A stretch of 16,642 nucleotides of DNA, from assembly GCA_026386995.1 (NCBI GenBank), contig JAPLMO010000472.1:1-16642 (forward strand). Direction: 5' to 3'. Positions 1 to 16,395 of the stretch are shown here, piece after piece. Position 1 is the stretch's first letter; each line of letters begins with the position of its first letter. The notes below the pieces were generated by a model. That model saw nothing but the letters and a program-made list of their open reading frames with translations, did not search any database and was not told the DNA's origin. The translations under genes were made by a program, and so were the position numbers. Source of the stretch: Planctomycetota bacterium (GTDB lineage: Bacteria > Planctomycetota > Phycisphaerae > FEN-1346).

Positions 1-176
1 TCGGGCATCAGGCACCAGGCCCGGATCTGGAGGCGATGGCTTGCGGCGTACCCGGTCAGAAGGTCCAGGAACCGGCGGCGGTCCTGGTCGTCGAAGAACA
101 GGGCCTTCCCGCGCTTGGCCCGCAGGACGACATGGTGCGGCACTCCCGGAATGACCAACCTTGCTGAGCGTGGCAT
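1..176 (-). CDS. REP-associated Y1 (HUH) transposase, N-terminal part, cut by window edge
   Basis: This is the first 58 codons of a gene running off the left edge. The protein begins MPRSARLVIPGVPHHVVLR and continues through FFDDQDRRRFLDLL to IRAWCLMPD. This is the N-terminal pattern of RAYT / IS200-like Y1 transposases, in which the HUH motif normally follows directly (MPNHVHL); here the sequence stops at that point. Such proteins cut and rejoin single-stranded DNA at REP hairpins. The ATG at 174-176 is preferred because the family starts with this MPR-x-ARx(V/I)IPG peptide. There is no room for a Shine-Dalgarno site between it and the promoter at 183-211, so the mRNA is probably leaderless. 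The usual TQRGN segment reads VLRAKRGKALFF, a modest divergence. Whether the catalytic part is intact cannot be seen. Confidence 0.85.
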   Translation of the reverse strand, partial: MPRSARLVIPGVPHHVVLRAKRGKALFFDDQDRRRFLDLLTGYAASHRLQIRAWCLMP

Positions 177-182
177 GATAGG

Positions 183-211
183 AGTATACCACCTATGGGG
201 GGTCGAGTCAA
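183..211 (-). promoter_or_regulatory. Sigma70-type promoter of the left transposase gene
   Basis: On the minus strand TTGACT (206-211) is followed after exactly 17 bases by TATACT (183-188). Each hexamer has five of six consensus bases. Only six bases separate the -10 box from the ATG, so transcription would start at or next to the initiation codon. Confidence 0.6.
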
Positions 212-220
212 CCAAAATAC

Positions 221-282
221 GGGACAGCGCCAGACCGCCCGGACCGCCGGCCCGGACCGGCGAAACCGACTGGCGCTGTCCC
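221..282. repeat. REP-like hairpin next to the left transposase gene
   Basis: GGGACAGCGCCAG (221-233) and its exact complement (270-282) form a perfect 13-bp inverted repeat around a GC-rich interior that itself contains repeated CCGGACCG. Similarity continues outside the arms: CAAAATAC precedes the left arm and TGATTGTTTTG follows the right arm, giving an imperfect A/T-rich foot. A perfect inverted repeat just upstream of a RAYT gene fits a REP element served by that transposase. This reading is an inference. Confidence 0.6.
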
Positions 283-337
283 TGATTGTTTTGGGGGCGC
301 CGGAAGGGGTGTCGGGGAATCACGACCAGCCCGGTCG

Positions 338-355
338 TATATACTATAGTATATA
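338..355. repeat. Perfect 18-bp A/T palindrome
   Basis: TATATACTATAGTATATA is its own reverse complement. It carries TATACT on both strands, and TATAAT overlaps its right edge (352-357). It could be a regulator operator or a pair of divergent -10 boxes, but no -35 box at the right distance is evident on either side. Confidence 0.45.
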
Positions 356-473
356 ATCGGAGGTGGCGAAAACCCCTTCGGCGGCCTCAGGAGGTATCAA
401 GTTCCGATCAAAAGCGCGTAAGAAGTGTCAAAAACCAGTAAAAAAGCGCCTTACCCATCTTACCAAAAGACGC

Positions 474-510
474 AAAAACGGCCTTGGCGCTAGCGCCAAG
501 GGGGTTTTTG
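474..510. terminator. Probable bidirectional intrinsic terminator
   Basis: CTTGGCGCTAGCGCCAAG (483-500) is a perfect 18-bp palindrome, extended to 482-501 by a C-G pair. It is followed by GGGTTTTT on the right and preceded by AAAAACGG on the left, so a stable GC stem is flanked by a U-run in both reading directions. It could isolate the transposase side from the uvrB side. Confidence 0.5.
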
Positions 511-713
511 ACCTCGCGCGGCGTAAAAAGCGCCCGATTTTGCCCTCCGGCATATACTAAAGTGAACGCGATACATTTTGGTTCTAAAGTGAATATGGGG
601 GCTGGAAAGTGGCATAGGGGGGGCGGACGCCTTAACAGCGTAGGGTTTCGGACCCCTTATGCCCCTGACCCCGCATAAACCGGGGGCCGCCGCCCTCGCG
701 TGCGGCTTGGGCG

Positions 714-742
714 TTGTCCCTTGCCCACCGGAGTGGTAGAAT
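714..742 (+). promoter_or_regulatory. Candidate promoter of uvrB
   Basis: TTGTCC (714-719), a 17-base spacer and TAGAAT (737-742) match the sigma70 pattern at four and five of six positions. The predicted start near 749 leaves a leader of about 20 bases before the ATG at 769. No LexA-type operator was recognised. Confidence 0.45.
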
Positions 743-768
743 TCCAGACTTCTGCCGCAGGGTGCGCA

Positions 769-2742
769 ATGGCCATCGATCGTTTTGAACTGGTGTCGGA
801 ATTTGAGCCCAAGGGCGACCAGCCCAAGGCCATCGATGCCCTTGCGCGCGGCCTGGAGGCTGGCAAGCGGTTCCAGACCCTCCTGGGCGTCACCGGCAGC
901 GGCAAGACGTTCGCCATGGCCAACGTCATCCAGCGGCTTCAGGCGCCGACGCTGGTTATCAGCCACAACAAGACCCTTGCGGCCCAACTATACAGCGAGT
1001 TCAAGGAGTTCTTCCCGCACAACGCTGTGGCGTACTTCGTGTCGTACTACGATTACTATCAGCCCGAGGCGTACATCCCCGCCCGCGACATCTACATCGA
1101 GAAGGACGCCTCCATCAACGATGACATCGACCGGCTGCGCCTTCAGGCCACCAGCGCCCTGATGCACCGCCGCGACGTCATCATCGTGGCCAGCGTCTCG
1201 TGCATCTACGGCCTGGGCAACCCCGAGGACTACGAGGGGATGGTCATCAACCTGGAGGTCGGCAAGCCCGTCGAGCGCGACGATCTTCTGCGGCGGCTGG
1301 TGGACCTCCAGTACGAGCGCAACGACATTGAGTTCGGCCGGGGCAAATTCCGCGTCCGGGGCGACTGCGTCGACGTGCAGCCGGCGTACGAGGAATTCGC
1401 GATGCGGATCGAGTTCTTCGGCACCGACGTCGACCGCATCGCCCTCCTGAACCCCACGACGGGCGAAATCCTCGGCGGCGAGCGCCAGGCGTTCATCTAC
1501 CCGGCCAAGCATTTCGTCATGCCCGGGGACCGTATCGGGCAGGCGTCCCTGGCGATCGAGGAGGAACTCGTCGCGCGGCTGCGCGAACTGCGTAACGCCG
1601 GTAAACTGCTGGAGGCCCAGCGCCTGGAGGCCCGCACGAAGTACGACCTTGAGATGCTCCGCGAGGTCGGCTACTGCTCGGGCATCGAGAATTACAGCCG
1701 CCACCTGTCGGGCCGCGGGGCCGGCGAGCGGCCGTTCTGCCTGCTCGACTACTTCCCCGAGGACCACCTGCTCTTCGTGGACGAGAGCCACGTGACCGTG
1801 CCGCAGATCCGGGCGATGTACGCCGGCGACCTCAGCCGCAAGAAGACCCTGGTGGAGCACGGCTTCCGCCTGCCGTCGGCGCTGGATAACCGGCCGCTGA
1901 AGTTCGACGAGTGGCACGCGCTGGCCCGGCGGTGCGTTTTCGTCAGCGCCACGCCCGCCGACTGGGAACTCGAGCAGTCGAGCGGCGAAGTCGTTGAGAT
2001 GGTCATCCGGCCGACGGGCCTCGTGGACCCGGCTATCCGCGTCGAGCCCGCCCGCGACCAGGTCCGCCACCTCCTGACCGAGGCGAAAACGCGGGCCGCG
2101 CGCGGCGAGCGGACGCTCGTCACTACCCTGACGAAGCGCCTGGCCGAGGACCTGACGGAATTCTTCCGCCGCGAGGGCGTCAAGTGCGAGTACCTCCACA
2201 GCGAGGTCGAGGTGTTCGACCGCAGCGAAATCCTGCGGGACCTCAGGCTGGGCAAATTCGACGTCGTCGTCGGCGTAAACCTCCTCCGCGAGGGCCTCGA
2301 CCTGCCGGAAGTCAGCCTCGTGGCCATTCTCGACGCCGACCGCGAGGGGTTCCTGCGGTCCGAGACGAGCCTCCTTCAGACCATCGGCCGCTGTGCACGC
2401 CACGCCAGCGCCGAGGTCATTCTTTACGCCGACACGGTGACCGAGAGCATGGCCCGTGCGATGGATGAAACCCGTCGCCGCCGCGAAAAACAGAAGGCCT
2501 ATAACGACCTCCACGGTATTAAACCGGAGACGATCAAGAAGGCCATCCGGGCGGGCATCGAGTCGGAGGTGCGGGGCCGGCGGGCCGCACGCATCGCCGT
2601 GCGACTCTCCGAAAAGGATTACGCGAAGACCGAACTGGTCCGCGAATTGGAAACCGAAATGTTCAAGGCGGCCGAATCGCTCGAATTCGAGCGGGCCGCC
2701 GAAATCAGGGACCGTATCATGGAACTCCAGAATGCCACCTAA
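769..2742 (+). CDS. uvrB: UvrB, excision nuclease subunit B (DNA damage recognition helicase)
   Basis: UvrB verifies lesions delivered by UvrA and recruits UvrC in nucleotide excision repair. The 657-residue product has the usual family length. Visible motifs are Walker A GVTGSGKT (40-47), the beta-hairpin with [12 protein letters not shown] (93-104) that wedges between the strands, LLFVDESH (334-341) as the DEAD-like motif, FVSATP (391-396), [20 protein letters not shown] (501-520), QTIGRCAR (537-544), and a C-terminal UVR motif (about 623-655) that binds UvrC. The frame is open upstream to 700, but ATG 769 is chosen because [22 protein letters not shown] matches family N-termini; only a weak ribosome site (CAGGG, 759-763) precedes it. 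nadC follows immediately, suggesting co-transcription. All key residues appear intact. Confidence 0.97.
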
Positions 2743-2764
2743 ACGCCCCGCCGCGACCATACCG

Positions 2765-3652
2765 ATGGAACGCCTTCGCATCCGCGCCCTCGACAGCCTC
2801 CAGCCCCTGCTGACGCTGGCACTCGACGAGGACATCGGGCCGGGCGACCTGACGAGCAACGTCCTCATCGACACCGAGGCGGCCGCGTACGGCGAACTCC
2901 TGGCCAAGGCCGACGGCGTGGTCGCGGGCCTGCTATTCGTGCCGAGCATCCTCCAGCGCGTCGACGGGCGGCTCCAGTTCAAGCACGAGGTCGAGGACGG
3001 CGCGCCGATCGCGCGCGGCAAGGTGATGGGCCGCATCGACGGGCCGGTGCGCCCGCTGCTGACGGTCGAGCGGACGGTCCTGAACTTCCTCCAGGTCCTC
3101 TCGGGCGTGGCCACGCTTACGAGCCAGTTCGTGGCGGCGGTGGCCGGCACGAACGCCGTCATCCTTGACACGCGCAAGACCACCCCCGGCTGGAGATATC
3201 TGGAAAAGTACGCCGTCCGCATGGGCGGCGGCATAAACCACCGCACGGGCCTGCACGACGGCGTCCTCATCAAGGACAATCACCTGGCCGTCCGCGCCCC
3301 GAACCACATGGGCGAGACTATCGCCGGCCTGGTGCGCGAGGCCCGCGGCCGCATCTCCGGAGAAATCCCCATCCAGGTCGAGGTCGAGCGGGTCGATTAT
3401 CTCCAGGAGGTTCTGCGCTCCAAGCCCGACGTGGTCCTGCTGGACAACATGGAGGCGGCGATGATCCGCGAGGCGGTCCAGATGCGCGACCGCCTGTTCG
3501 GCGACGGCGGGCCGGCGCTTGAGGCCTCGGGCGGCATAACGCTCGAAAACGTCCGCCAGGTCGCCGAGACCGGCGTCGACCGCATCAGCGTCGGGGCGCT
3601 GACGCACAGCGCCCCGGTGCTGGACATCTCGCTGGAAGTGACACGCGCGTAG
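2765..3652 (+). CDS. nadC: Nicotinate-nucleotide pyrophosphorylase (quinolinate phosphoribosyltransferase)
   Basis: NadC converts quinolinate and PRPP to nicotinate mononucleotide, the branch-point step of de novo NAD synthesis in the cytosol. The 295-residue product has the normal length. It contains EDIGPGDLTS (22-31), ERTVLNFLQVLSGVAT (102-117), DTRKTTPGWRYLEKYAVRMG (135-154), HRTGLHDGVLIKDNH (159-173), VEVE (205-208), LLDN (225-228), EASGGI (253-258) and DRISVGALTHSAP (272-284). These cover the substrate- and phosphate-binding loops. ATG 2765 is preferred on length. An upstream ATG at 2732, overlapping the uvrB stop, would add 11 residues not typical of the family but would give translational coupling; neither has a strong ribosome site. 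No nadA or nadB is nearby. The stop at 3652 is followed directly by hairpin repeats. Confidence 0.96.
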   Translation: MERLRIRALDSLQPLLTLALDEDIGPGDLTSNVLIDTEAAAYGELLAKADGVVAGLLFVPSILQRVDGRLQFKHEVEDGAPIARGKVMGRIDGPVRPLLTVERTVLNFLQVLSGVATLTSQFVAAVAGTNAVILDTRKTTPGWRYLEKYAVRMGGGINHRTGLHDGVLIKDNHLAVRAPNHMGETIAGLVREARGRISGEIPIQVEVERVDYLQEVLRSKPDVVLLDNMEAAMIREAVQMRDRLFGDGGPALEASGGITLENVRQVAETGVDRISVGALTHSAPVLDISLEVTRA

Positions 3653-3657
3653 ATGTG

Positions 3658-3751
3658 GTTTGTTGTTTCATGATTAGCCCCCCACGGTAGTGGGGGGGGC
3701 GATGGGCTGTAGTTTGTTGTTTCATGACTAGCCCCCCACGGTAGTGGGGGG
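3658..3751. repeat. Two tandem copies of a 40-bp hairpin repeat
   Basis: Positions 3658-3697 and 3712-3751 are identical over 40 bases except for one T/C difference. Each begins GTTTGTTGTTTCATGA and ends in a hairpin with an 8-bp stem, CCCCCCAC / GTGGGGGG, around GGTA. They stand between nadC and a RAYT gene, as REP elements often do. The hairpins have no U-run, so a terminator role for nadC is possible but weakly supported. Confidence 0.75.
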
Positions 3752-3775
3752 TGATGTGCGATTGGGGGGACTCCC

Positions 3776-4237
3776 TTGGGCGAACCCTTGGCCTACTTCC
3801 TCACTTGGACGTGCTATGGCACCTGGTTGCCGGGTGACGAGCGGGGGTGGGTCGATAAACACGACGCCGGCCCCAATGCCCCGTACAAGCCGCCGGACCC
3901 CCTGCGGCGGGCCTGTGCCGCGGCCCGTATGGACGAACCGCCCGTCATCTTCTCGCTCCAGAAGCGAATGCTCGTCGACACGGCCATCCGGGAGACTTGC
4001 ACCTACCGCGGCTGGTTCATCCATCGGCTGAGCGTGCGGTCGAACCACGTCCACGTGGTTGTGACTGCGCCGCACACCACGCCCGAATCGGCCATGCAGG
4101 CTCTCAAGGCCAACGCCACTCAGGCCCTGAACGGCCTCGGCCGGCGCAAACATTGGTGGACGGAGGGCGGTAGCAAACGGTATCTTAATGACCCGCGATC
4201 GCTTCGAGGTGCCGTCGAGTACGTGGCGAATCAGTGA
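3776..4237 (+). CDS. REP-associated Y1 (HUH) transposase, second subfamily
   Basis: A 153-residue single-strand transposase of the Y1/RAYT superfamily, distinct from the protein at the left edge. It begins LAYFLTWTCYGTWLPG (5-20), a hallmark of this subfamily. It has the metal-binding HUH motif as NHVHVVV (90-96, H91 and H93) and ends EYVANQ, supplying the nucleophilic tyrosine Y149 and the helper Q153 in the Y-x-x-x-Q arrangement. The catalytic set is therefore complete. The stop falls immediately after Q153, whereas relatives usually run further, so the C-terminus may be shortened. TTG 3776 is chosen as start: it sits 6 bases after a GGGGGGA ribosome site (3764-3770) and gives the family N-terminus. 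Hairpin repeats lie just upstream (3658-3751) and a repeat cluster downstream (4458-4573), the natural substrates of such an enzyme. Confidence 0.85.
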   Translation: MGEPLAYFLTWTCYGTWLPGDERGWVDKHDAGPNAPYKPPDPLRRACAAARMDEPPVIFSLQKRMLVDTAIRETCTYRGWFIHRLSVRSNHVHVVVTAPHTTPESAMQALKANATQALNGLGRRKHWWTEGGSKRYLNDPRSLRGAVEYVANQ

Positions 4238-4819
4238 CCATAGCCACATGGTCGTGCAGAGGAACGAACCCCTCTGCCCGCCGACGCCGCATCAGCCAAG
4301 GGATTTGAGGTTCTTGCGGAAGATAACGGTTGTGGGATGCTCGTCGCCCAGCCGCTCTCGGCGTCGCACAACCCGTGGGAGCGTTCGTCTTTCAATACAT
4401 CCGCCCCGACGGGGCGGGGGAATCGCCGGGATGCCTGCGTATCAACAGCGTAGGGGCAAAGGGGGCTGTACCCTTTTCGCGCTTTTGCGAAAAGGGGACT
4501 ATCCCCTTTGCCTTGCCGGAAAAGGGGACAGCCCCCGTTTCCATACAGCCGGAAACGGGTGCAGCCCCCTTTTCCTCGCTCCGAAAATCTCCTTCGCCCC
4601 GCCGGGGCGAAAAACGGAAAAAGGGTCCTGAACGCTTTTCCCTCATCCGCTTTCCACGGGTTCCGCGTCGGGCCGCTTTGCGGCCGCGCCGCTCCACCCG
4701 CGGCTACAATCCGCCGCCCCGTTGGGGCTGAAATGCCGATACGTCGCAGGGGCCTGGAAACGCCCCGGCCTCCAAGTGCGGCCGGACGAGACGGACGGGC
4801 TCCTTGCCGCGTCAAGAGT
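4238..4819. other. Repeat-rich non-coding spacer
   Basis: No credible gene is seen; the long frames here on both strands only read through repeats (they show KGDSPLF-like repeats in several frames at once). The spacer has three short hairpins built on CCCC-NNN-GGGG: CCGCCCC/GGGGCGG (4401-4417), TTCGCCCC/GGGGCGAA (4593-4611) and GCCCC/GGGGC (4716-4728). It also contains the four-unit cluster listed separately. It looks like accumulated repeat debris next to the transposase gene. Confidence 0.6.
4458..4573. repeat. Cluster of four 20-21 bp REP-like units with stem-loops
   Basis: Four units share the pattern (GCG/CCG)GAAAAGGGGACAGCCCCC: 4461-4480 on the minus strand, then 4487-4506, 4516-4536 and 4549-4569 on the plus strand. 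They pair into hairpins: CCCTTTTCGC/GCGAAAAGGG (4471-4480 with 4487-4496), AAAGGGGA/TCCCCTTT (4491-4498 with 4502-4509) and CCCGTTTCC/GGAAACGGG (4534-4542 with 4551-4559). An outer near-perfect inverted repeat joins 4458-4473 and 4557-4573. The head-to-head first pair and head-to-tail others recall BIME arrays. Confidence 0.75.
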
Positions 4820-4843
4820 TAAGTATTGTCCCCGGAACTACCC
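4820..4843. repeat. Left 24-bp inverted repeat of the RelA/SpoT cassette
   Basis: Starts TAAGTATTGTCCCCGGAAC. It matches the reverse complement of 5955-5978 at 22 of 24 positions. The last codons and stop of the 82-residue gene lie inside it. Confidence 0.7.
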
Positions 4844-5086
4844 GATAGGACCGCTACTGGAGTTCAAAATCTGTCGGAGGTCTTTGAAGTATCGCTGGTG
4901 CGTCCGGCGTAACGCATCTTCGCTTTCCGCCTCCAGTAGGACCACTTCGTGGCCTACCCCTTTATGGTTGAGATCCAACTCGATACCGAGACGCAAGTCC
5001 TCGGCCTCCCGCCGTTGCGAGTCGGCGAAGTCGCGAAAGGTAACGATTCGGCCTTCACTCCGGTTGTACTCGATTAAGAAAATCAT
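4838..5086 (-). CDS. Small protein coupled to the RelA/SpoT-domain gene, function unknown
   Basis: An 82-residue protein beginning MIFLIEYNRSEGRIVTFRDF. It appears soluble, with no signal peptide or membrane segment. A beta-strand-like start (IFLIEY, RIVTF) is followed by a charged helix (about 22-40), another strand-like HEVVLLEA (46-53) and a second helix (54-73). The ATG (5084-5086) overlaps the stop of the RelA/SpoT gene in an ATGA (5083-5086), and a GGGGAAG ribosome site precedes it, so the two are translationally coupled and transcribed leftward together. The stop codon TAG lies within the left inverted repeat. I do not know its function. Pairing with a nucleotide pyrophosphokinase-like protein makes an antitoxin or regulator of that enzyme a reasonable guess, but nothing in the sequence proves it. 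Base composition is lower in GC than in the housekeeping genes. Confidence 0.75.
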   Translation of the reverse strand: MIFLIEYNRSEGRIVTFRDFADSQRREAEDLRLGIELDLNHKGVGHEVVLLEAESEDALRRTHQRYFKDLRQILNSSSGPIG

Positions 5087-5925
5087 TGCTTCTTCCCCTT
5101 TAGTTTATCTAGCCCAGAGATCGCCTTGGCCAAAAGGTCGGCGTTCACATTCCACAGGCGTACCAACTTTCCTCGCATTTCTTGTTCACGCTGTTTGAGG
5201 CGTACTATATTGCGTGTCGAGTCTTCCAGATTTCCTCGTATTTCTTGTGCCTCGTTGCGGGGTGGGTGCAGTTCAAGAAATTCAACGGCGGCTTTCTTGA
5301 ACTCCTCGTGAGCCGCCACTGCCACCTCTGTGGACGCCACCGCTTCGAAAAACTTTGTCTCGAACTTCTCGTAAGACGCCACCGCTTCGGAACTGCTTGT
5401 GAGGAATCTTCGCCACCAGTCGGGGCCGCCGCCGTACTTAATCGTTGGATCGAGAACGTCGGAGGATTTCTCCGAAAGCTCCGCCCATCTGTGCTGCAAC
5501 GAAGTCCGAGCCTGGATCTCGACCGGCTTCCCGGAGATCATGGCGATGATGTGTACCGCTCGGTAGCCGTAACTTGGATTGTCGCGGCGGTCTATTACGG
5601 ACGCTCCGAGGAAGTCGGTTTTTAAGGACGCAACGAATTGCTCTTGTCGCACAATATTCGCTACGACGACTCTGCATCCCGCGATATCCTGCATTTGGCT
5701 CAGTCGGATGCTCTCGCGGCGGAGTTTTTCCACTATCGAGAATGTGGACTTGGCCAGCCTTCCCGTCGGGAACTCGCCGCGCTGACGAATCGTTCGGACC
5801 ACCGACTCGTACGCCTCGCCAAACGACCGCCGGTACTCTTCGAGCAATCGAAGATCGCTCTCGGTGTGGGGACCTCCCTTTAGTCGGTCACCGAGCCGGT
5901 CGATTTGCGTCTTGCTAAAGTTCAC
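5083..5925 (-). CDS. RelA/SpoT-domain protein (small alarmone-synthetase-like)
   Basis: A 280-residue protein with one RelA/SpoT nucleotidyltransferase domain and no HD hydrolase, TGS or ACT domain. Conserved positions are visible in order: GRLAKSTFSIVEKLRRE (55-71, the basic ATP/pyrophosphate-binding segment), QDIAGCRVVV (79-88), SYGYRAVHII (118-127, G-loop tyrosine Y121 and H125) and VEIQARTSLQHRWAELSEK (135-153, with the E-x-Q pair). Family members transfer pyrophosphate from ATP to GTP/GDP, or in toxic forms to adenine nucleotides or tRNA; which applies here cannot be decided. Residues 180-260 are charged and probably coiled-coil. The start is GTG 5925, chosen for the MNFSKTQIDRLGDRLK N-terminus; no strong ribosome site precedes it. 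The gene has noticeably lower GC than the rest of the window and sits between 24-bp inverted repeats, suggesting acquisition by transfer. Confidence 0.87.
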   Translation of the reverse strand: MNFSKTQIDRLGDRLKGGPHTESDLRLLEEYRRSFGEAYESVVRTIRQRGEFPTGRLAKSTFSIVEKLRRESIRLSQMQDIAGCRVVVANIVRQEQFVASLKTDFLGASVIDRRDNPSYGYRAVHIIAMISGKPVEIQARTSLQHRWAELSEKSSDVLDPTIKYGGGPDWWRRFLTSSSEAVASYEKFETKFFEAVASTEVAVAAHEEFKKAAVEFLELHPPRNEAQEIRGNLEDSTRNIVRLKQREQEMRGKLVRLWNVNADLLAKAISGLDKLKGKKQ

Positions 5926-5954
5926 TTAGAGTGCGTCCCCAAAGGGAGTTCCGG

Positions 5955-5978
5955 GGGGAGTTCAGGGGACAATACTTA
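5955..5978. repeat. Right 24-bp inverted repeat of the RelA/SpoT cassette
   Basis: Reads GGGGGAGTTCAGGGGACAAT onward to ACTTA and is the inverted partner of 4820-4843 (22 of 24). A partial duplicate of its inner part, GGGAGTTCCGG (5944-5954), lies just inside. No matching target-site duplication was seen outside the two repeats. Confidence 0.7.
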
Positions 5979-6044
5979 TCTCCGCTTGCGTTTGCGGTCG
6001 GCCGGTCCACGGCTGAGGACATGGGTGTAAATGATCGTTGTCTT
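5976..6044 (-). pseudogene. Tyrosine recombinase (integron-type integrase) C-terminal remnant
   Basis: On the minus strand this stretch reads KTTIIYTHVLSRGPADRKRK and ends at a TAA (5976-5978). TT-x-IYTHVL-x-RG is the nucleophile motif near the C-terminus of integron-type and related tyrosine recombinases, the Y (6027-6029) being the catalytic residue. Upstream the expected LLGH-D segment is missing, and an in-frame TGA lies about 17 codons before the lysine, so only a fragment survives. Its stop codon is the TAA at the outer end of the right inverted repeat of the RelA/SpoT cassette. The match is short, so this is a motif-based call. Confidence 0.5.
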
Positions 6045-6209
6045 CACGCTGCTGGCGCAATGGAGGCGTCCCCGACTCAACACGACTCACCCGCTTGAAA
6101 TTCGGCCCTGCATCTTACCCGGAAGCATACACGGCGACTTCGACCTTTGCCAATACATTCCGGCGGGGCCGCACTGCGTGGGTGTGGCCTCGGATTCTGG
6201 CAGGCGGTT
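6045..6209. other. Non-coding spacer, no feature recognised
   Basis: Between the recombinase remnant and the large palindrome I see no gene, promoter or repeat that can be supported. It may contain further decayed recombinase sequence, since GTGTTGAGTCGGGGACG on the minus strand (about 6069-6085) resembles a degenerate copy of the segment encoding VLSRGP. Confidence 0.3.
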
Positions 6210-6432
6210 CCGTTCGTAGGGGCGGCCCTGCGTGGCCGCCCTGCTGTTGTTTCAATTGGCCGGCGGCAACCGCCGCACTAAAACAGTTCACGATTGGGTG
6301 TGGCCCCGCGCCGCAGTCCGCGTGGGCATGCATGCCCAGGCAACGGCGGCCTGGGCATGCCACCCAGATACATGCAATCGTGAACTGCTCTAACGGCATG
6401 GGCGGCCACATAGGGCCGCCCCTACGCAACGG
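6210..6432. repeat. Large nested palindrome bounded by inverted GTAG-headed hairpins
   Basis: The outer arms 6215-6241 and 6400-6426 match at 25 of 27 positions in inverted orientation, and similarity extends outward by CCGTT. Each arm is a hairpin: GTAG, then GGGCGGCC, a 6-base loop and GGCCGCCC (6216-6241 on plus, 6425-6400 on minus). Inside are a 13-bp inverted repeat CAGTTCACGATTG (6284-6296 with 6375-6387) and GCATGCCCAGGC (6330-6341 with 6349-6360), plus the palindrome GGGCATGCATGCCC (6324-6337). The order and the GTAG heads match the architecture of a BIME, two REP units in opposite orientation. Confidence 0.75.
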
Positions 6433-6464
6433 CAATCGTCCATACGCAACGGCAATCGTCCATA
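6423..6464 (+). repeat. 20-bp tandem duplication
   Basis: TACGCAACGGCAATCGTCCA occurs at 6423-6442 and is repeated exactly at 6443-6462, followed by the first two bases of a third copy. It overlaps the right end of the large palindrome, so it probably arose by slippage or by an event at the hairpin foot. Confidence 0.85.
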
Positions 6465-6557
6465 ACTAGTTTTACTACTGTTGCGGCGTTTTCCCTTTAC
6501 CCTCACCCGCGTAATCTGTGTAATCTGCGGAAGGAATCCGTGGTTTGAGGTGGCCCT

Positions 6558-7538
6558 ATGGACGTGCGGCTATCGCTCGCGCTCCGCGAAAGGCGGTCGC
6601 GGCCCGTGTTTGCCGAGGAACTGGGCGCGGCCCTTGCGCTCGCGCCGCAGCGTCTCGCCCGCGAAATCGACGAACTCTCGCGGCGCGGCTTTGTGATCGA
6701 GAACAACCCTGTGCTCGGCCTGCGACTCGTGGGCGTGCCGGCGTCGCTCATCGAGGAGGAACTCGCCCACGGTATGGCCGCGCGGCGGGTGGGGCGGCGT
6801 ATCAGGTGCGTGGAGTCGGCCGCATCGACCAACGACCTGGCGTGGGAGGCGGCGGCCCGCGGACGCGAGGAGTCCGATGGCCTGGCGGTCCTGGCGGAGT
6901 ACCAGACGGGCGGCCGGGGGCGCCGGGGGAACCGGTGGCTGGCCCCGCCGCACTCGTCCATTCTCATATCGGTGGTCGTATGGCTCGCCGATGCGCCTAG
7001 CCGGGCGGGCGTGCTGACGCGGGCCTCGGCTCTGGCGGCCGCACGGGCGATCGAGGGCGCCAGCGCGGCGGACGTTGGCATCAAGTGGCCCAACGACCTT
7101 GTGATCGACGATCGCAAGGTTGGCGGCATACTGGTTGAGGCCCGGCCGGTCGCTGGGGAGGTGGGGCGGGTGGTGATCGGCATCGGCATCAACTGTACGC
7201 AGGGGCCGGAGGCGTTTCCGGAGGAGATCCGCCCGACCGTCGCCAGCCTGGGGATGCTCGGCGAGCAGCCCGACCGGACGGTCCTGGCCCGGTTGCTTCT
7301 GGTGCGGCTGGACGAGGTTTTTGGGCGGCTGGCCGACCCTGACGGGGCCGACGCTATAGCCCGTGACGCCGCCGCCAGGTGCAGAACCCTCGGCCGCCGG
7401 ATCACCGTCCAGGAGGGCGGGGCGGCCTATACGGGGGAAGTAGTCGATCTGGACGCCGATTACGGGCTTGTCCTCCGCCTGCGGGAGGGCGGGGGCCTGC
7501 GGACGTTTCCTGCAATGACGACCCATGTGGTCGGGTAG
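6558..7538 (+). CDS. birA: BirA, biotin--[acetyl-CoA-carboxylase] ligase
   Basis: BirA activates biotin as biotinyl-AMP and attaches it to the carrier lysine of acetyl-CoA carboxylase and related carboxylases. The 326-residue product has the length of the bifunctional class: residues 1-60 look like a winged-helix DNA-binding domain (FAEELGAALALAPQRLAREI, 18-37, then GFVIE), followed by the catalytic domain with STN (90-92), the biotin-binding loop GGRGRRGNRW (118-127), KWPNDL (176-181), the catalytic-lysine segment KVGGILVE (187-194) and GIGINC (208-213). A C-terminal SH3-like domain (about 275-326) completes it. ATG 6558 follows GAGGTGG (6547-6553) by four bases. It may repress biotin genes, but none is nearby and no operator was recognised. 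It appears to be a single-gene transcript between repeat regions. Confidence 0.95.
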   Translation: MDVRLSLALRERRSRPVFAEELGAALALAPQRLAREIDELSRRGFVIENNPVLGLRLVGVPASLIEEELAHGMAARRVGRRIRCVESAASTNDLAWEAAARGREESDGLAVLAEYQTGGRGRRGNRWLAPPHSSILISVVVWLADAPSRAGVLTRASALAAARAIEGASAADVGIKWPNDLVIDDRKVGGILVEARPVAGEVGRVVIGIGINCTQGPEAFPEEIRPTVASLGMLGEQPDRTVLARLLLVRLDEVFGRLADPDGADAIARDAAARCRTLGRRITVQEGGAAYTGEVVDLDADYGLVLRLREGGGLRTFPAMTTHVVG

Positions 7539-7591
7539 CCCGTATGGGCTTCCCGGGTTGCCGGAGCGGTCGTGCGGCACTCTTGCGCGGC

Positions 7592-7735
7592 GGGTCAGGG
7601 TACGTGTCTAGCGTGGCCGCGCCGTGTAGCGCGGGGGTTTATCCCCCGCGTGTTCGTAAACGCGGGGCACAAGGCCCCGCGCTACGCCGCGTAAGATACG
7701 GGCCGGCGCGACACGCTAAAAACGTACGGGTCAGG
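7592..7735. repeat. MITE-like element with inverted termini, direct-repeat borders and an inner GTAG REP pair
   Basis: The element spans about 7600-7727. It starts GTACGT and ends ACGTAC; the inverted termini (7600-7623 and 7705-7727) match at roughly 20 of 24 positions. GGGTCAGG occurs directly outside both ends (7592-7599 and 7728-7735; 9 bp if C is included), as an 8-9 bp target duplication would. Inside, two hairpins face each other: GTAG + CGCGGGGG-TTTAT-CCCCCGCG (7626-7650, plus) and GTAG + CGCGGGGC-CTTGT-GCCCCGCG (7685-7661, minus). No protein is encoded. Confidence 0.7.
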
Positions 7736-8151
7736 AGACCCGCCTTGCAAATCAGAGCCCCCTTTTCCTTGCCCTGCTTAAAAAACACCTCAGAAGTGGG
7801 GGGGGTGCGCGTATGCGGCGGCGGGAATTCGCGGGGTGTTGTCGGTTGATGGCCCAAATCCGTAAGTCCTTGTCCTGACGCGAGTTGCGGCGGCTGCCAG
7901 GGAATTTTTCCCAGGTTGTTCCGCCCGCCCGACTTGACGGGACCCCTTTTTTCAATAGAGTTAACTGCGTTCGCGGAAGAAGGCGGTCGATGAGACCGCT
8001 GTATTTTGGGAATCTGGTGTTAAGATGGCCAATATGGCGACTTTGGAAAAAAGAGTGAAGGTAGGTATACGGCTGGCCGATATTAAGGGATGTCAGAGTG
8101 GGGCGGCAGTGGGCGTCCCTGTTGACAAGGTGCCGGGAAACGGTTGTGGCT
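7736..8151. other. Non-coding spacer upstream of the pilin leader
   Basis: No protein family is recognisable. It contains a possible promoter (7934-7961), a small hairpin GCGGTC-GATGA-GACCGC (7983-7999), a TTGACA (8122-8127) without a good partner box, and the motif AAGATGGCCAATATGG (8022-8037), which recurs upstream of the small membrane protein gene. Confidence 0.4.
7934..7961 (+). promoter_or_regulatory. Possible promoter of the pilin transcript
   Basis: TTGACG (7934-7939), 16 bases, then TAGAGT (7956-7961). This would give a leader of about 410 bases before the pseudopilin gene. The -10 match is only four of six, so the assignment is tentative. Confidence 0.25.
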
Positions 8152-8204
8152 GGCGGCAGAGCATGTCCGACCCGTCGTGCCGCCGCCCGTTTTGTAGGGC
8201 GTAG
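8025..8204 (+). CDS. Possible 59-codon ORF in the pilin leader, unproven
   Basis: ATG 8025 opens a frame beginning MANMATLEKRVKVGIRLADI and ending SCRRPFCRA, with four cysteines in the second half (C23, C41, C51, C57). There is no clear ribosome site; GGTG lies 6 bases upstream. The first 16 bases are repeated at 9142-9157 without the frame being kept, which favours a DNA or RNA motif over a gene. I recognise no family. It is listed because it is the only open frame of note in an 840-base spacer. Confidence 0.15.
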   Translation: MANMATLEKRVKVGIRLADIKGCQSGAAVGVPVDKVPGNGCGWRQSMSDPSCRRPFCRA

Positions 8205-8286
8205 GAAAGGGGTGAGAAAAAGGACTACGCGTCTACCACATGGGTAGAACCACCGCCGTGGGCCATTGTGGCATCGGCGGGCGGTG
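8152..8286 (+). ncRNA. Structured leader candidate upstream of the major pseudopilin
   Basis: Four stem-loops follow one another: GGCGGCA/TGCCGCC (8152-8158 with 8178-8184), GCGTAG/CTACGC (8199-8204 with 8225-8230) closing a purine-rich 20-base loop, TCTACC/GGTAGA (8232-8237 with 8243-8248), and CACCGCCG/GGGCGGTG (8251-8258 with 8279-8286, one mismatch). The gene starts 94 bases later. The arrangement suggests a folded 5' leader. It does not show the conserved core of the c-di-GMP-I riboswitch, and I match it to no known class. Confidence 0.35.
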
Positions 8287-8379
8287 AGACGAAGGGCCGG
8301 ACTTGAAGACCAGAACGAAAACGAGAACACGGACCTGACAGCGTCCCCCAAGGGGAAACGAAGTAACAAGGAGAATCAA

Positions 8380-8868
8380 ATGAAGCGCACGACGAAAAAG
8401 GGCTTTACACTGGTTGAAATTCTGATCGTGGTGATCATCCTGGGCATTCTGGCGGCGATCGTGATCCCGCAGTTCTCGCAAGCGTCGACGGAGGCCCGCA
8501 TATCGAGCCTCAAGACCAACCTCCAGACCATCCGCAGCCAGTTGCTCCTGTACAAGATGCAGCACACTGGCGAGGTGTATCCGACTGACGCGGACTTAGT
8601 ACAGATGACGAATTGCACGGACATGGCCGGCACGGTCCTCGCCACAGCGCCGACCAACGTGCCCACCACCGCGTGTCCCCTGGGACCGTACCTGCAGACC
8701 GTTCCGGTCAACCCGATTACCGGCCTGAACACCGTCCGGATCGCGGCGACATTCGCGGGGACAGAGGTGGATGGCTGGGTGTTGAACAGCACGACCGGCG
8801 AGTTCAGGGCCGACTTGTTGAACACCAGGTTGGCGCCTGACGGCGTAACGTTGCTTAACAGTCTCTAA
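8380..8868 (+). CDS. Prepilin, GspG-like major pseudopilin
   Basis: A 162-residue prepilin. The leader MKRTTKKG ends at the G8/F9 prepilin peptidase site, and the mature protein begins FTLVEILIVVIILGILAAIV with the conserved glutamate at +5 (E13), followed by about 20 hydrophobic residues forming the filament core. The C-terminal part has GPYLQTVPVNPITG (102-115) and DGWVLNSTTGEFRADL (131-146), typical of GspG-like pseudopilins, and two cysteines (C79, C99) that could form a disulfide. It would be processed at the inner membrane and assembled into a short pilus or pseudopilus. The start is ATG 8380, six bases after AAGGAG (8368-8373), the best ribosome site in the window; the frame is open further upstream. 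A strong terminator follows, so it is probably expressed more highly than the genes downstream. Confidence 0.93.
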   Translation: MKRTTKKGFTLVEILIVVIILGILAAIVIPQFSQASTEARISSLKTNLQTIRSQLLLYKMQHTGEVYPTDADLVQMTNCTDMAGTVLATAPTNVPTTACPLGPYLQTVPVNPITGLNTVRIAATFAGTEVDGWVLNSTTGEFRADLLNTRLAPDGVTLLNSL

Positions 8869-8881
8869 AACCAGAGAAAAT

Positions 8882-8935
8882 CGCTGTGGGTGCGCAGCGG
8901 TGACCGCCAGCCTCTTCGTGTAGGGGCGAAGAGGC
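8882..8935 (+). repeat. Two small hairpins in the 3' end of the pilin transcript
   Basis: CGCTG/CAGCG (8882-8886 with 8895-8899) and the perfect 9-bp GCCTCTTCG/CGAAGAGGC (8910-8918 with 8927-8935) lie between the pseudopilin stop and the terminator. They could protect an abundant mRNA from 3' exonucleases. Confidence 0.5.
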
Positions 8936-8940
8936 ATGGT

Positions 8941-8990
8941 CTCGGGGGCAGACACGCGTGGAGCGTCGTCTGCCCCCGAGTATTTTGTTG
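8941..8990 (+). terminator. Intrinsic terminator after the major pseudopilin gene
   Basis: A perfect 13-bp GC-rich stem, CTCGGGGGCAGAC (8941-8953) with GTCTGCCCCCGAG (8968-8980), encloses a 14-base loop and is followed by TATTTTGTTG. It separates the pilin transcript from the pilMNOPQ-side genes, either completely or as an attenuating partial stop. Confidence 0.8.
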
Positions 8991-9169
8991 GGTGCGGAAT
9001 GTTGCGCCAGCGGCGGCGGCCCGGATGGCGGCCCGGAAGCCCGCCTCGCGGCCCAAATCGTTTAAGACCCCCCTCCTTTAGTGCCGATAATTCCGATGTG
9101 AGACCGTCTCGAAGAGCGGCTCTATTCTGCGCACGCTCCGCAAGATGGCGAATATGGGAGAACCTGGAA

Positions 9170-9496
9170 ATGGAATCCAAGCATCTGCAAACGATTGCGC
9201 ATGCACTGGTCCTGGTGGCGATCATGCTGGGGCTGATCGCGGGCGCCCTGTGGCTGCGGCTTGAGCCGGGCGCGCTGGAGAACGAGGCGCGGGCCCAGGG
9301 CACGGCCCGGGTCATCGCCGCCACCACCGACGGGCCCGGCATTCCCGACGCCGGCCGCCAACGCATGATGATCGTCGAGCAACTTCAGGTGCTCAACCAG
9401 CGCATGGCCGACATCGAAAAGGGCCTGCGCGATGGGTCATACAGCATCCAGACGGCCGAGCCCAAGGGCTCGTCCCGGAAGAAAGAATCGGAGTAA
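9170..9496 (+). CDS. Small single-pass membrane protein of the pilin cluster, unknown function
   Basis: A 108-residue protein starting MESKHLQTIAHALVLVAIML. Residues about 11-30 form one membrane helix (ALVLVAIMLGLIAGALWL). The rest is charged, with a probable helix or short coiled coil around MIVEQLQVLNQRMADIEKGL (67-86) and a lysine/serine-rich tail. With few basic residues before the helix, the orientation is uncertain. ATG 9170 lies nine bases after GGGAG (9156-9160). The stop is 6 bases before the next pseudopilin gene and its end provides that gene's ribosome site, so the two are co-translated. I recognise no family. Its position suggests an accessory or scaffold component of the pilus machine. 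It is not a prepilin: there is no G/FTLxE motif. Confidence 0.75.
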   Translation: MESKHLQTIAHALVLVAIMLGLIAGALWLRLEPGALENEARAQGTARVIAATTDGPGIPDAGRQRMMIVEQLQVLNQRMADIEKGLRDGSYSIQTAEPKGSSRKKESE

Positions 9497-9502
9497 TCCG
9501 TC

Positions 9503-10027
9503 ATGAGAACCATCGCACCGCCACTGAGGGCCGCGTTCACGCTGGTCGAGATACTGATCGTGGTTCTCGTCCTGATGATTGCCGCAGCCATCGTGATTCC
9601 CAACATCGGGTCGGCCGATGACTCGCAGGCCATTGCCGCCGCCGCCATCCTCCAGTCGGACCTGGAGGTCGCGCGGAGCATGGCGATGACGACCCAGGTG
9701 CCGCATTCCGTGGTTTTCAGCCTGGACCGGCAATCGTACAAGGTGGTCGCCAATTACACGGGCGTCGCGTATACGGCGGCGGTGGCGATCAACCACCCGG
9801 TCCTGAACAAACTGTACGAGGTCCGCCTGAACGGCCTCAATGGAATGGGCCTCGTGTCGGTGACGAGTGTTGCTTTCGGTGTTCCGCCCCAGCAGTACGT
9901 GACGTTTCAGTCGCTTGGCGACCCGGTCGCCGCCGGCAGCGTGGTTCTGCGTGCGGGCAACATCATTATGACCGTGTCGGTCGAGGCGATGACGGGGATC
10001 GTGTCGGCGACTCGCACGGGCGGATAG
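9503..10027 (+). CDS. Prepilin, GspH/minor-pseudopilin-like
   Basis: A 174-residue prepilin-type protein. The N-terminus MRTIAPPLRAA is followed by FTLVEILIVVLVLMIAAAIV with the conserved +5 glutamate (E16). The residue before the cleavage point is alanine (A11) rather than the usual glycine, which prepilin peptidases tolerate but cut less readily. The body has LQSDLEVARSMAMTTQVPHSVVFSLD with the spacing of GspH/FimT-type minor pseudopilins (helix, then beta-rich domain with YKVVANY). It would sit at or near the pilus tip or be incorporated in low amounts. The start ATG 9503 lies nine bases after CGGAG (9489-9493), inside the end of the preceding gene. The gene family is clear; which minor pseudopilin (H, I, J) it replaces is not. 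Confidence 0.9.
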   Translation: MRTIAPPLRAAFTLVEILIVVLVLMIAAAIVIPNIGSADDSQAIAAAAILQSDLEVARSMAMTTQVPHSVVFSLDRQSYKVVANYTGVAYTAAVAINHPVLNKLYEVRLNGLNGMGLVSVTSVAFGVPPQQYVTFQSLGDPVAAGSVVLRAGNIIMTVSVEAMTGIVSATRTGG

Positions 10028-10085
10028 GCCGGCAAGGATTTTCTGGTGACGCGTGCGGGCGTCCGAGCGTTGGAAAGGGTTTGCG

Positions 10086-11201
10086 TTGAGGCCGTTACCC
10101 ATAGGGCTGGACATCGGAACGACAACGGTCCGCCTGTTTCAACTGGCGGGGACCGAGCGGGACCTGCGAGTCGTGGACGCGGCGAAGTTCGTGATTCCGC
10201 AGGACGTCAAGGTGTTGCCGGAGCGTCGCCGTGAAGTGGTGACGGGCGGCATCCGGCGCCTCCTGAAGGAGCACCGTTTCCGCGGGCGCGAGGTGGTCAT
10301 GGCGTTGGCGCCGGGCCAGTTGTCGATCCGCAACGTCCGCCTCCCGAAGATGCCGGAGGAGGAGCGGTCAACGGCCGTCAACTGGGAGGCGCAGAACCGG
10401 TTCCCCTTCGACACGGCCACGGCGGTGATCCAGTACCTGCCGGCCGGCGAAATCCGCCAGGGCGACCAGGTCCTCGATGAGATCATCATCCTGGCGGCGC
10501 CCCGGACCGAGGTGGACGCCCAGATGCAGTGGGCGTGCGAGGCGGGGCTGGAGGTGGTGAGCCTGGACGCGGAGCCGTGCGCGGTGTTCCGCGGATTCGA
10601 GCGGTTTCTGCACCGCCGCGAGGACGAGAACGTCGCGAGCGTCATGGTGGACATCGGGGCGCAGGCAACGGTCGTGATCGCGCGCGGCCGCGACATCGTT
10701 TTCGTCAAGATGATCCCGATCGGCGGCGCGGCGTTCAACCGGGCCGTGGCCGAGTGCCTGGAACTGGCGGTGACCGAGGCCGAGGCGCTGCGGCGCCGGC
10801 TCGGCCGGCGCAAGCGGCCGTCGGCGGCCGGCGGCCAGGCCGACGAGGAATCCGACCGCGTCTGCCGCGCGGTGGCCGACGCCATCCGGCCTCACCTGGA
10901 GGACCTTGCCGGCGAGATCGCCCTGTGCCTGCGGTACTACAGTGTGACGTTCCGCGGCGCGCGCCCGGAATCGGTCACGTTCACGGGGGGCGAGGCGCAG
11001 AACATCGACATTCCGACCGCCCTGGGGGAACGCCTGGGCGTCGAGGTCCGTGCCGCCGACCTGTTCCGGGGCGTCAAGACGGACCACCTGGGCCAGGTGC
11101 TGGACCGCCGCGTTGCCCTGCCGGAGTGGACGACGGCGTTCGGGCTGAGTTTGAAGGGTTTTCACCTGGCGGCCCAGATGGCGGCCGGCGCCGTATCGTG
11201 A
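10086..11201 (+). CDS. pilM: PilM, actin-like ATPase of the pilus inner-membrane platform
   Basis: A cytoplasmic actin-fold protein that binds the N-terminal tail of PilN and links the platform to the motor. The 371-residue form starts MRPLPIGLDIGTTTVRLFQL, whose GLDIGTTT (7-14) is phosphate loop 1. VDIGAQAT (188-195) is phosphate loop 2 and TGGEAQNI (300-307) the adenosine motif. MPEEERSTAVNWEAQNRFPF (89-108) is the characteristic PilM segment. The start is uncertain: TTG 10086 has GGAAAGGG six bases upstream and gives the family N-terminus, while GTG 10053 in the same frame would add 11 residues with a poorly spaced ribosome site. Residues 235-265 form an arginine-rich insert (RRRLGRRKRPSAAGG). 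The gene is followed after 18 bases by pilN. Confidence 0.93.
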   Translation: MRPLPIGLDIGTTTVRLFQLAGTERDLRVVDAAKFVIPQDVKVLPERRREVVTGGIRRLLKEHRFRGREVVMALAPGQLSIRNVRLPKMPEEERSTAVNWEAQNRFPFDTATAVIQYLPAGEIRQGDQVLDEIIILAAPRTEVDAQMQWACEAGLEVVSLDAEPCAVFRGFERFLHRREDENVASVMVDIGAQATVVIARGRDIVFVKMIPIGGAAFNRAVAECLELAVTEAEALRRRLGRRKRPSAAGGQADEESDRVCRAVADAIRPHLEDLAGEIALCLRYYSVTFRGARPESVTFTGGEAQNIDIPTALGERLGVEVRAADLFRGVKTDHLGQVLDRRVALPEWTTAFGLSLKGFHLAAQMAAGAVS

Positions 11202-11219
11202 CGGCGGAAGGATATCCAC

Positions 11220-11795
11220 ATGCGAGAACTCGAATTTCTGCCACCCGAATACTTGCGGGCGCGGTTTCATCGCCGGGTCCGTTTTATCCGGTCGTGGCTT
11301 TTGTTGACGATGGGGCTGGCGATGGTTCTCTGGAGCCTCCAGATGGGCTATTGGGTCCGCGATGCCCAGGCCGAACTGGCAGCGCTCACCGGCACGGGCA
11401 CCGCGGTGGACCTGGACGTGGCCAAGGTCCGGCGGCTCCAGGCCGAGACGCGGGTCTACAGCCGGCGGATCGAGGCATTACGCAGCCTGCGGCCGCACGT
11501 GACCGCCGCGGAAATGGTGGCTACCCTGGCGGACCTGCTGCCGGAAGGGGTTGTGGCGGACGACGTGACGGTGGACCAATCTTCGCAAAGTCCGCCCGAG
11601 CGGGCGCGGATCCGCCTGTCGGGCATCGCGGTGACGGAGGCGATGGTCATCCAACTGCTGGCGGCGCTGGAAGCGTCGCCCGCGTTTGAGCGGCCGGTCC
11701 TGATCGAATCGAAACCGGTGGCCGGTGATAGCACGGGACGCCGCGCGTTTATTGTGGCGGCCGATGCGAAAATCGCCGCGCCGGCGAAGGAGTAG
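11220..11795 (+). CDS. pilN: PilN-like inner-membrane platform protein
   Basis: A 191-residue bitopic protein. The cytoplasmic tail MRELEFLPPEYLR corresponds to the INLLP peptide by which PilN docks on PilM, here as EFLPPEY. A membrane helix spans about residues 24-44 (RSWLLLTMGLAMVLWSLQMG), then a coiled coil (45-95) and a small alpha/beta domain (100-190) that pairs with PilO. ATG 11220 is preceded by GGAAGGA (11206-11212). Order and spacing (pilM, pilN, then pilO after 5 bases) are as in type IV pilus operons; a GspL-like role in a secretion system is equally compatible. Confidence 0.88.
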   Translation: MRELEFLPPEYLRARFHRRVRFIRSWLLLTMGLAMVLWSLQMGYWVRDAQAELAALTGTGTAVDLDVAKVRRLQAETRVYSRRIEALRSLRPHVTAAEMVATLADLLPEGVVADDVTVDQSSQSPPERARIRLSGIAVTEAMVIQLLAALEASPAFERPVLIESKPVAGDSTGRRAFIVAADAKIAAPAKE

Positions 11796-11800
11796 ATTCT

Positions 11801-12418
11801 GTGACGAACCAGGCAGTCAAACGCAAGCGTTGGGCGGTGGACCACCAGCAACTGCTGATCCTGCTGGTGTCGGCCGTCATGGTGGGCAGTTTCGTCCTGT
11901 TGGTGTTCTGGCCGACGCAGCAGCAACTGTCGGATCTGGGCTCGGAAGTGTCGCGGCAGCGGGAACTGGTGGACCTGAAAATGCGGACCAGCCAGGAGGG
12001 GTTGTACGTGTCGGCGCGGATCGCGGCCCTGCGGGGCGTCCAGGATCGCCTCGGGCGGCGTCTGCCGGAAGACGTTCGCCTGGCCGAGTTCCTGGAGTCT
12101 GTCGACGGGTGTGTTCGGACTGAAAAAGGCATCACCCATGAAATCCAGCGCCTGGAAACCGAGTCGGCCGGGCCGGTGCCGGCGGCGGCGATCCGCCTGA
12201 AACTCACCGGACCGTTTGAGTCCGTGCACCGGTGCCTGGCGCAAGTGGAAGGATTGGAGAGGCTGAACCGGGTGCAGCGTCTGCACGTGAAACGCCTGGA
12301 CGATGCCGGGCAGGTGATGGCGGATGCGGAGATCCACATCTACTACCTGCCCGCCGAGGCGTCGGGGCCGGCGCAGCGGGCGTCGGTCGAAGTGGAGCCT
12401 GAGGTCATACGCGGATGA
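11801..12418 (+). CDS. pilO: PilO-like inner-membrane platform protein
   Basis: A 205-residue protein with a short basic cytoplasmic start (MTNQAVKRKRW), one membrane helix at about 17-37 (LLILLVSAVMVGSFVLLVFW), a coiled coil (38-85) and a periplasmic ferredoxin-like domain (about 90-195; RLKLTGPFESVHRCLAQVEG is the usual strand-helix element). PilO dimerises with PilN and aligns the platform with the secretin. The start is GTG 11801, eight bases after GAAGGAG (11786-11792), which lies at the end of pilN. The stop overlaps the next start as ATGA (12415-12418), so translation is coupled. Confidence 0.86.
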   Translation: MTNQAVKRKRWAVDHQQLLILLVSAVMVGSFVLLVFWPTQQQLSDLGSEVSRQRELVDLKMRTSQEGLYVSARIAALRGVQDRLGRRLPEDVRLAEFLESVDGCVRTEKGITHEIQRLETESAGPVPAAAIRLKLTGPFESVHRCLAQVEGLERLNRVQRLHVKRLDDAGQVMADAEIHIYYLPAEASGPAQRASVEVEPEVIRG

Positions 12419-13038: not shown

Positions 13039-13049
13039 GGAGGTATGCC

Positions 13050-15155: not shown

Positions 15156-15165
15156 GAGCCCGACC

Positions 15166-16287: not shown

Positions 16288-16324
16288 TGGAACACACATA
16301 GCGCGGCGGGTCTCCGCGTATGTG

Positions 16325-16369
16325 CGCGGCGGGCAGTCTTGCCCGCCGCGGTGGGCAAGACTGCCCACC
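16325..16369. repeat. Paired hairpins that also form one long palindrome
   Basis: CGCGGCGGGCA/TGCCCGCCGCG (16325-16335 with 16340-16350) and GGTGGGCA/TGCCCACC (16350-16357 with 16362-16369) are two adjacent hairpins with 4-base loops GTCT and AGAC. The whole block is also near-palindromic, with the first hairpin pairing with the second over about 25 bp. It lies between the TPR gene and the last gene. No U-run follows, so a terminator role is unclear; a REP/BIME-like element is more likely. Confidence 0.65.
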
Positions 16370-16395
16370 GCGCGATTTGGAGGAGGCAGTCGGCC

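Follow-up and report, generated by a model that had tools for sequence, protein, structure and literature searches.

Are two inverted repeats that bracket a pair of genes the ends of a mobile unit to which the pair belongs? This question is raised by a locus of a Planctomycetota bacterium (Phycisphaerae; GenBank assembly GCA_026386995.1, contig JAPLMO010000472.1, positions 1 to 16,642, the whole stretch being called the window below), where two genes, one of them coding for a RelA/SpoT-domain protein, lie between near-identical repeats. An earlier reading of the letters alone (the sequence-only reading) had proposed a cassette-like unit without a transposase of its own, possibly moved by a RAYT transposase or by a recombinase whose remnant lies beside it. 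We favour, with a probability of about 0.62, a different explanation: a split CapRel-like toxin-antitoxin pair that is mobile independently of these repeats, which derive from a RAYT gene and bracket it here. The features concerned are:

4816..4843, plus strand: RAYT-3'-end repeat, left copy (GAGTTAAGTATTGTCCCCGGAACTACCC), agreeing with the right one at 25/28 positions, placed by an alignment of 17 stretches; outer side decayed
4838..5086, minus strand: 82-aa partner, proposed antitoxin, stop codon inside the left repeat; no Pfam match
5083..5925, minus strand: RelA/SpoT-domain protein of 280 aa, proposed toxSAS toxin (RelA_SpoT PF04607, E 6e-13)
5955..5982, minus strand: right copy of the repeat (GAGATAAGTATTGTCCCCTGAACTCCCC), from repeat finding, 14-mer search and the alignment of 17 stretches
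5983..6005, minus strand: stretch by which the right repeat runs on outward into the C-terminal codons of a RAYT (..DRKRKRR, then stop), by blastn to copies in genomes G443 and G002 up to 6005

The inverted repeat is real and unlikely to have arisen by chance. An inverted-repeat search of the window gave arms of 28 nt that are 89% complementary and separated by 1111 nt, and the 24-nt cores at 4820-4843 and 5955-5978 agree at 22 of 24 positions. The 14-mer GGGGACAATACTTA matched the window twice, both times exactly, versus 0.01 matches expected with up to two mismatches allowed. Between the 500-bp flanks the inverted-repeat score was 19, which none of 300 dinucleotide shuffles equalled (mean 9.6, maximum 16). 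By rank, the repeat at 4816/5982 is sixth among 203 inverted pairs in the window; it is the near-exact core that sets it apart, not its rank. At the left border, the TAG stop (4838-4840) of the second open reading frame (ORF) falls within the repeat, while 29 bp lie between the right repeat and the GTG start of the toxin ORF. That repeats of this quality stand at the edges of a lower-GC two-gene block, as had been claimed, was thus confirmed.

The repeats do not accompany the pair elsewhere. A scan of GTDB genomes found relatives of the first gene at 42 loci, including loci of Planctomycetota, Elusimicrobia, Acidobacteria, Omnitrophota, Nitrospirae, Gemmatimonadales and Proteobacteria. A transposon with private terminal repeats should show them again wherever related units end, and this was seen at none of the 42: the 14-mer was absent with up to two mismatches allowed, and no flanking inverted repeat had a comparable score (best other 14 versus 19 here), one flank being shorter than 160 bp at six loci (L001, L002, L024, L028, L034 and L042). 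The repeat was not found beside either copy of the pair in G002 (L002, L003), a genome of the same family, though G002 carries the repeat family. Terminal repeats specific to the pair were therefore rejected, and the view that they mark the borders of the pair's own unit was not supported.

Homology of its flanks identifies the repeat as a RAYT (Y1) transposase gene's 3' end that is dispersed in this planctomycete lineage. In whole-genome searches of the 11 genomes that hold 12 chosen loci, G002 alone had the exact 14-mer, in a single convergent pair with copies 1 kb apart (G002:C295). Both outer flanks of this pair translate in frame into a RAYT-type Y1 transposase C-terminus, with the TAA of the repeat as stop codon. 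The right arm shares 58% identity over 36 aa with an intact 229-aa Y1 protein of genome G454 (E 5e-11), which belongs to PF01797 and scores 70 bits with NF047646 (cut-off 80); the left arm shares 70% identity with the right one and 52% with the G454 protein. The repeat is made up of the last RAYT codons, the TAA stop and then GTATTGTCCCCGGAACT. In the window, the right outer flank scored 26-41 against six of seven copies of the RAYT tail, with none of 200 shuffles equal, and 18 against the seventh (L047, left), a score reached by 23 of 200 shuffles. The left outer flank (4700-4815) is collinear with the tail at a level that is not significant (6-69 of 200 shuffles equal). Homology to the RAYT 3' end was thus found for the right window copy and both G002 arms, and for the left window copy over 28 bp only; the 17 chosen stretches, both window arms included, align over approximately 45 bp.

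Several copies per genome occur within the lineage, in G443 and G002. A RAYT-tail query matched 4 of 101 genomes of the class. A DNA search gave ten matches in G443 (two of 45 bases), three in G002 (one arm, one of 48 bases and one of 24 bases without the repeat), a single 43-base match in G438 and none in the other three family genomes; in a second search there were eight in G443, four in G002 (the second arm included) and none in the other six genomes of the order. In G443, two pairs of neighbouring copies, with distances of 742 and 929 bp, are directly oriented; every other copy stands alone on its contig. Judged by eye, the five G443 copies inspected have an additional base in common between GGCGAT and GGCCTGGA, so the tail spreads there as a non-coding dispersed repeat. 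Among the Y1 genes of G002 (nine loci), the repeat was present within one mismatch only at L055, in the neighbourhood of L053; the gene beside the L053 repeat copy looks like a vsr candidate.

A common sequence of the phylum was rejected as an identity of the repeat, the exact 14-mer being present in 3 of 392 Planctomycetota genomes and paired only in G002; the other two (L048, L049) showed no tail context. A 17-mer with up to one mismatch was found in 5 of 198 class genomes, again paired only in G002. Its four single matches comprise L067, within an open frame, L064, with a similar trailing CCCGGAATT, and L065 and L066, which we read without a clear assignment. A 21-mer with up to three mismatches matched only G002 among seven genomes. 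In viral contigs, an 18-mer gave no match and a 19-mer one, within a 428-codon open frame; the repeat was not matched in plasmids and phages.

The repeat is not a canonical repetitive extragenic palindrome (REP), since it folds no better than shuffled sequence: six of six DNA stretches examined for the hairpin of a REP or REPIN folded like their shuffles (z -0.85 to 1.06), and three further stretches gave z -1.39 to 0.34. The GGGGA/TCCCC stem of the G002 copies appears as GCGGA/TCCGC in one G443 copy (L078 134-200, minus strand, versus L047 4236-4300), possibly a compensatory change; other copies break the stem. A pattern search of 136 sequences found a GTCCCC..GGGGAC arrangement after the repeat only in L053 (601-656) and in the window (5926-5978, minus strand).

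What, then, is the enclosed pair? The two minus-strand ORFs share an ATGA overlap. In the 280-aa protein, PF04607 occupies residues 58-149 and is followed by helices, and a profile search matched no hydrolase family; a synthetase domain without a hydrolase domain is the make-up of toxSAS toxins. Foldseek comparisons against two PDB-type libraries placed CapRel at the top (E 3.5e-10 to 7.9e-10, ~20% identity), with SAS1 absent among the best 50 matches listed, and in the VIA comparison CapRel alone among the synthetase matches covers residues 1-280. The partner weakly resembles toxSAS antitoxins and aligned to CapRel residues 286-349. The PADLOC profile PDC-S33 matched both ORFs (E 5e-34 and 1e-5). 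By predicted fold, then, the first protein looks like a toxSAS toxin of the CapRel type and the second, weakly, like a toxSAS antitoxin. In five full-length comparisons, the ratio of nonsynonymous to synonymous substitutions was 0.57-1.22 in the C-terminal part of the toxin versus 0.16-0.27 in residues 1-165; fast evolution of the C-terminal helices is as expected if they face phage. Rfam and tRNA searches gave no match.

The composition of the pair is foreign. GC is 0.555 for the toxin ORF and 0.549 for the partner, and GC at third codon positions is 0.65 and 0.67 versus 0.84-0.92 in six host genes. The mean distance in relative synonymous codon usage is 0.61 and 0.66 versus 0.16-0.34 for the host genes, which form their own reference; short genes drift more, a 459-bp Y1 gene reaching 0.45. 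At all 19 related loci measured, the GC of the pair lies under that of its flanks, by 0.001 (L014) to 0.155 (L013). Here the sequence-only reading held: its foreign, low-GC block without a transposase of its own stands, and the codon comparison with neighbouring genes that it had proposed sets the pair apart from them.

The genes on either side are those of the family:

2765..3652, plus strand: nadC, left syntenic neighbour (tblastn, 73-85% identity in 6/6 family genomes)
6558..7538, plus strand: birA-type gene, right syntenic neighbour (6/6 family genomes; truncated at a contig end in G002)

The order uvrB-nadC-birA is kept in all six family genomes, and the pair is absent between nadC and birA in all six. 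Their spacer measures approximately 20-240 bp in five of them and 0.8 kb in G433, versus 2905 bp in the window. The proposed search for an empty site was thus answered in part: relatives without the block are plain to see, while a precise empty site was not found. In G433, the closest of the six by uvrB (85%), the spacer holds an NTP_transf_2 gene (MntA-like, below the NCBIfam cut-off) with a HepT-like partner (L119 3161-3791, G433:C30), so two different toxin-antitoxin-type pairs have entered this site.

Homologue searches matched 2322, 963 and 773 proteins, the best 120 of each being listed. Over 2300 proteins (2322) were homologous to the toxin, and the nearest among the matches listed sit on metagenome contigs (P0002, P0129). 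DNA homology among 11 loci and the window spans approximately the two ORFs, reaching up to 36 bp further upstream in a few pairs; against four relatives its outermost limits were 4844 (L003) and 5926 (L002). Synonymous divergence (dS) of the toxin gene from the window is 0.32 for L001 and 0.33 for L006 (other Planctomycetota), 0.33 for an Elusimicrobia fragment (L034, 84 codons compared), 0.28 and 0.57 for the G002 copies L002 and L003, and 0.57 for L005 (Hydrogenedentes). For uvrB/nadC, dS is 0.53-0.75 against five of the six synteny-sharing family genomes and 0.67/0.64 for G002. Because its codon use is odd, all six syntenic sites lack it and its dS to copies in other lineages (0.28-0.33) is lower than that of uvrB/nadC within the family, the pair is foreign and horizontally acquired. 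It travels between lineages without a visible vehicle.

In the reading we favour, the pair would be a horizontally acquired, bicistronic toxin-antitoxin system of the toxSAS kind. A CapRel-like toxin, with an alarmone-synthetase fold and long C-terminal helices, would be translationally coupled to the 82-aa antitoxin, the equivalent of the fused C-terminal domain in CapRel. The antitoxin would block the synthetase site; once triggered, perhaps by a phage product that the fast-evolving C-terminal helices sense, the toxin would modify tRNA or nucleotides and growth would stop. The flanking repeats are two convergent copies of a lineage-specific dispersed RAYT-3'-end repeat and not ends of the pair itself. 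RAYT activity presumably spread them; inserted or recombined on both sides, they meet the pair's last gene and an integron-integrase remnant. Transport of the whole bracketed block by a RAYT is possible.

The convergent repeats of G002 bear most directly on this last point. They enclose a different gene, coding for a 311-aa protein without Pfam match whose homologues (best 120 of 773) include ones named HAF-family extracellular repeat; the repeat is therefore not private to the toxin-antitoxin-like pair. In the window as in G002, the repeat is where the enclosed gene stops. The window partner terminates in ..GPIG with its TAG inside the repeat, L003 in ..GPISG and the nearest proteins in ..PISD or similar; as the C-termini of other relatives vary, at most a few codons were lost. 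In G002 a TGA overlaps the repeat edge, and the protein lacks the PEP-CTERM-type end found in 11 of 13 aligned homologues (picked by length from the best 120). A PEP-CTERM motif was not found within ~1.5 kb outside the G002 arms. Both gene-repeat edges are recombination or insertion junctions, and two cases cannot separate captured cassettes from insertions. One could thus suppose that convergent RAYT-end repeats are the functional ends of a non-autonomous passenger element, an oversized REPIN-like cassette with exchangeable cargo served by a RAYT in trans. Convergent pairs ~1 kb apart around different cargo in two genomes, the gene ends at the repeat and the missing PEP-CTERM end speak for it, as does the statement, in the accessible part of PMC2817692, that RAYT genes are always flanked by two inverted REPs. 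We nevertheless hold it unlikely: it rests on two cases, the neighbouring G443 copies are direct and the rest solo, the loss from the window partner would amount to one or two codons and C-termini vary among relatives in any case, neither a precise empty site nor a target duplication was seen (in relatives, the spacer between nadC and birA does not align with that of the window), and the repeat has no significant hairpin. Also doubtful, in our view, is the broader proposal that the lineage's convergent RAYT-3'-end copies are portable brackets which capture unrelated genes, here the CapRel-like pair and the HAF-repeat-like protein, join the gene end to the repeat edge and are moved as ~1-kb transposase-less cassettes by a RAYT in trans. 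Both observations that the sequence-only reading had set against itself were made, the repeat being dispersed (mostly solo or direct) and the pair occurring in relatives without it; the G002 pair still leaves room for a bracket independent of its passenger. The link to a Y1/RAYT transposase that it had drawn stood, in that the repeat is a RAYT 3' end, while the pair-specific unit was not supported; RAYT involvement in a wider sense is supported in part, and a RAYT may have been the mover.

The right repeat adjoins a further feature:

6000..6053, minus strand: C-terminal remnant of an integron integrase (SSVKTTIIYTHVLSRGPA), directly adjoining the right repeat (phmmer, NCBIfam)

Its sole PDB match is IntI4 2a3v (phmmer, E 0.093, weak) and its sole NCBIfam match TIGR02249 (E 0.003-0.004, far below the cut-off), and a Pfam search found no recombinase family; the recombinase remnant suspected on this side is therefore borne out by weak but specific matches. 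A similar fragment, reaching its own C-terminus, lies in family member G413 (L151, G413:C44:9520-9642), which suggests that integrons were once present in this family. An integrase that inserted the pair at a recombination site within the repeat would explain the adjoining remnant and the gene ending in the repeat, and the G413 fragment agrees with it. We consider this very improbable: the repeat translates as a RAYT C-terminus, and attC sites have a GTTRRRY core, which was not seen in the repeat by eye. No TIGR02249 match above the cut-off occurred in eight genomes of the order, and the weaker matches, found in 14 of 14 control genomes also, are ordinary tyrosine recombinases. At 30 loci, the repeat stood at no recombinase end, with two 3-mismatch matches elsewhere. 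The pair itself might not be a toxin-antitoxin system but a small alarmone synthetase of the housekeeping type, together with a partner that regulates it. The fold comparisons, with CapRel first, SAS1 missing from the matches listed and full-length coverage by CapRel alone, the partner's weak likeness to toxSAS antitoxins and a patchy spread over phyla that is atypical of housekeeping genes make this improbable.

Further elements lie to the left of the block:

3776..4237, plus strand: Y1_Tnp (IS200-like/RAYT-like) gene, basic C-terminal tail missing (PF01797 27 bits, cut-off 23)

This gene scores 24 bits with NF047646, below the cut-off of 80. Right before it, a 44-nt sequence is repeated in tandem (two units, 95%) and includes a CCCCCCACGGTAGTGGGGGG hairpin (3654-3751), possibly the left end of that IS200-like element. 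Nested hairpins at 4455-4575 contain four related 24-nt units of the AAAAGGGGACAGCCCC type, with 58-nt arms that are 78% complementary. The stretches 4362-4425 and 4572-4739 are 80-86% similar to G002:C267 near an IS200-like Y1 gene (L053/L055) and probably represent a second dispersed intergenic repeat of the lineage. At the left edge of the window, positions 3-323 (minus strand) encode the N-terminal part of a protein (Pfam Y1_Tnp E 0.16), which we take to be RAYT-like.

CapRel (PDB 7ztb, 9erv; PMC9712102) is a fused toxSAS toxin-antitoxin in phage defence. The window pair shares its predicted synthetase fold and connecting helices, followed by a putative antitoxin domain, but is split into two ATGA-coupled genes, with ~20% identity. 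The FaRel2/ATfaRel2 module (PDB 8pu1-8pu4), from the available text of PMC11782079, is a related system, with its operon written antitoxin/toxin in the accessible part of PMC10565793; in the window the toxin gene precedes that of its partner, and its product has long C-terminal helices. The PDC-S33 model covers both ORFs in order (toxin 7-278, partner 265-336 of 349), yet apparently represents one fused protein; PDC-S33 is a candidate system only, and its name was not found in the papers searched. The repeat recalls RAYT/REP and REPIN systems as the accessible parts of PMC2817692 and PMC3116915 describe them, with a Y1 transposase, short dispersed repeats at the gene end (rayt genes being flanked by inverted REPs) and inverted pairs (REPINs being inverted REP doublets). 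Unlike those, it includes the last RAYT codons, folds like shuffled sequence, has few copies and brackets ~1.1 kb with genes. The available text of PMC8266576 calls RAYTs domesticated, and the titles and abstract openings found in a literature search held no report of RAYT-end repeats carrying genes.

For this lineage, convergent RAYT-end repeats around whole genes, if true, would make gene capture by RAYTs testable. RAYTs are known as spreaders of tiny repeats.
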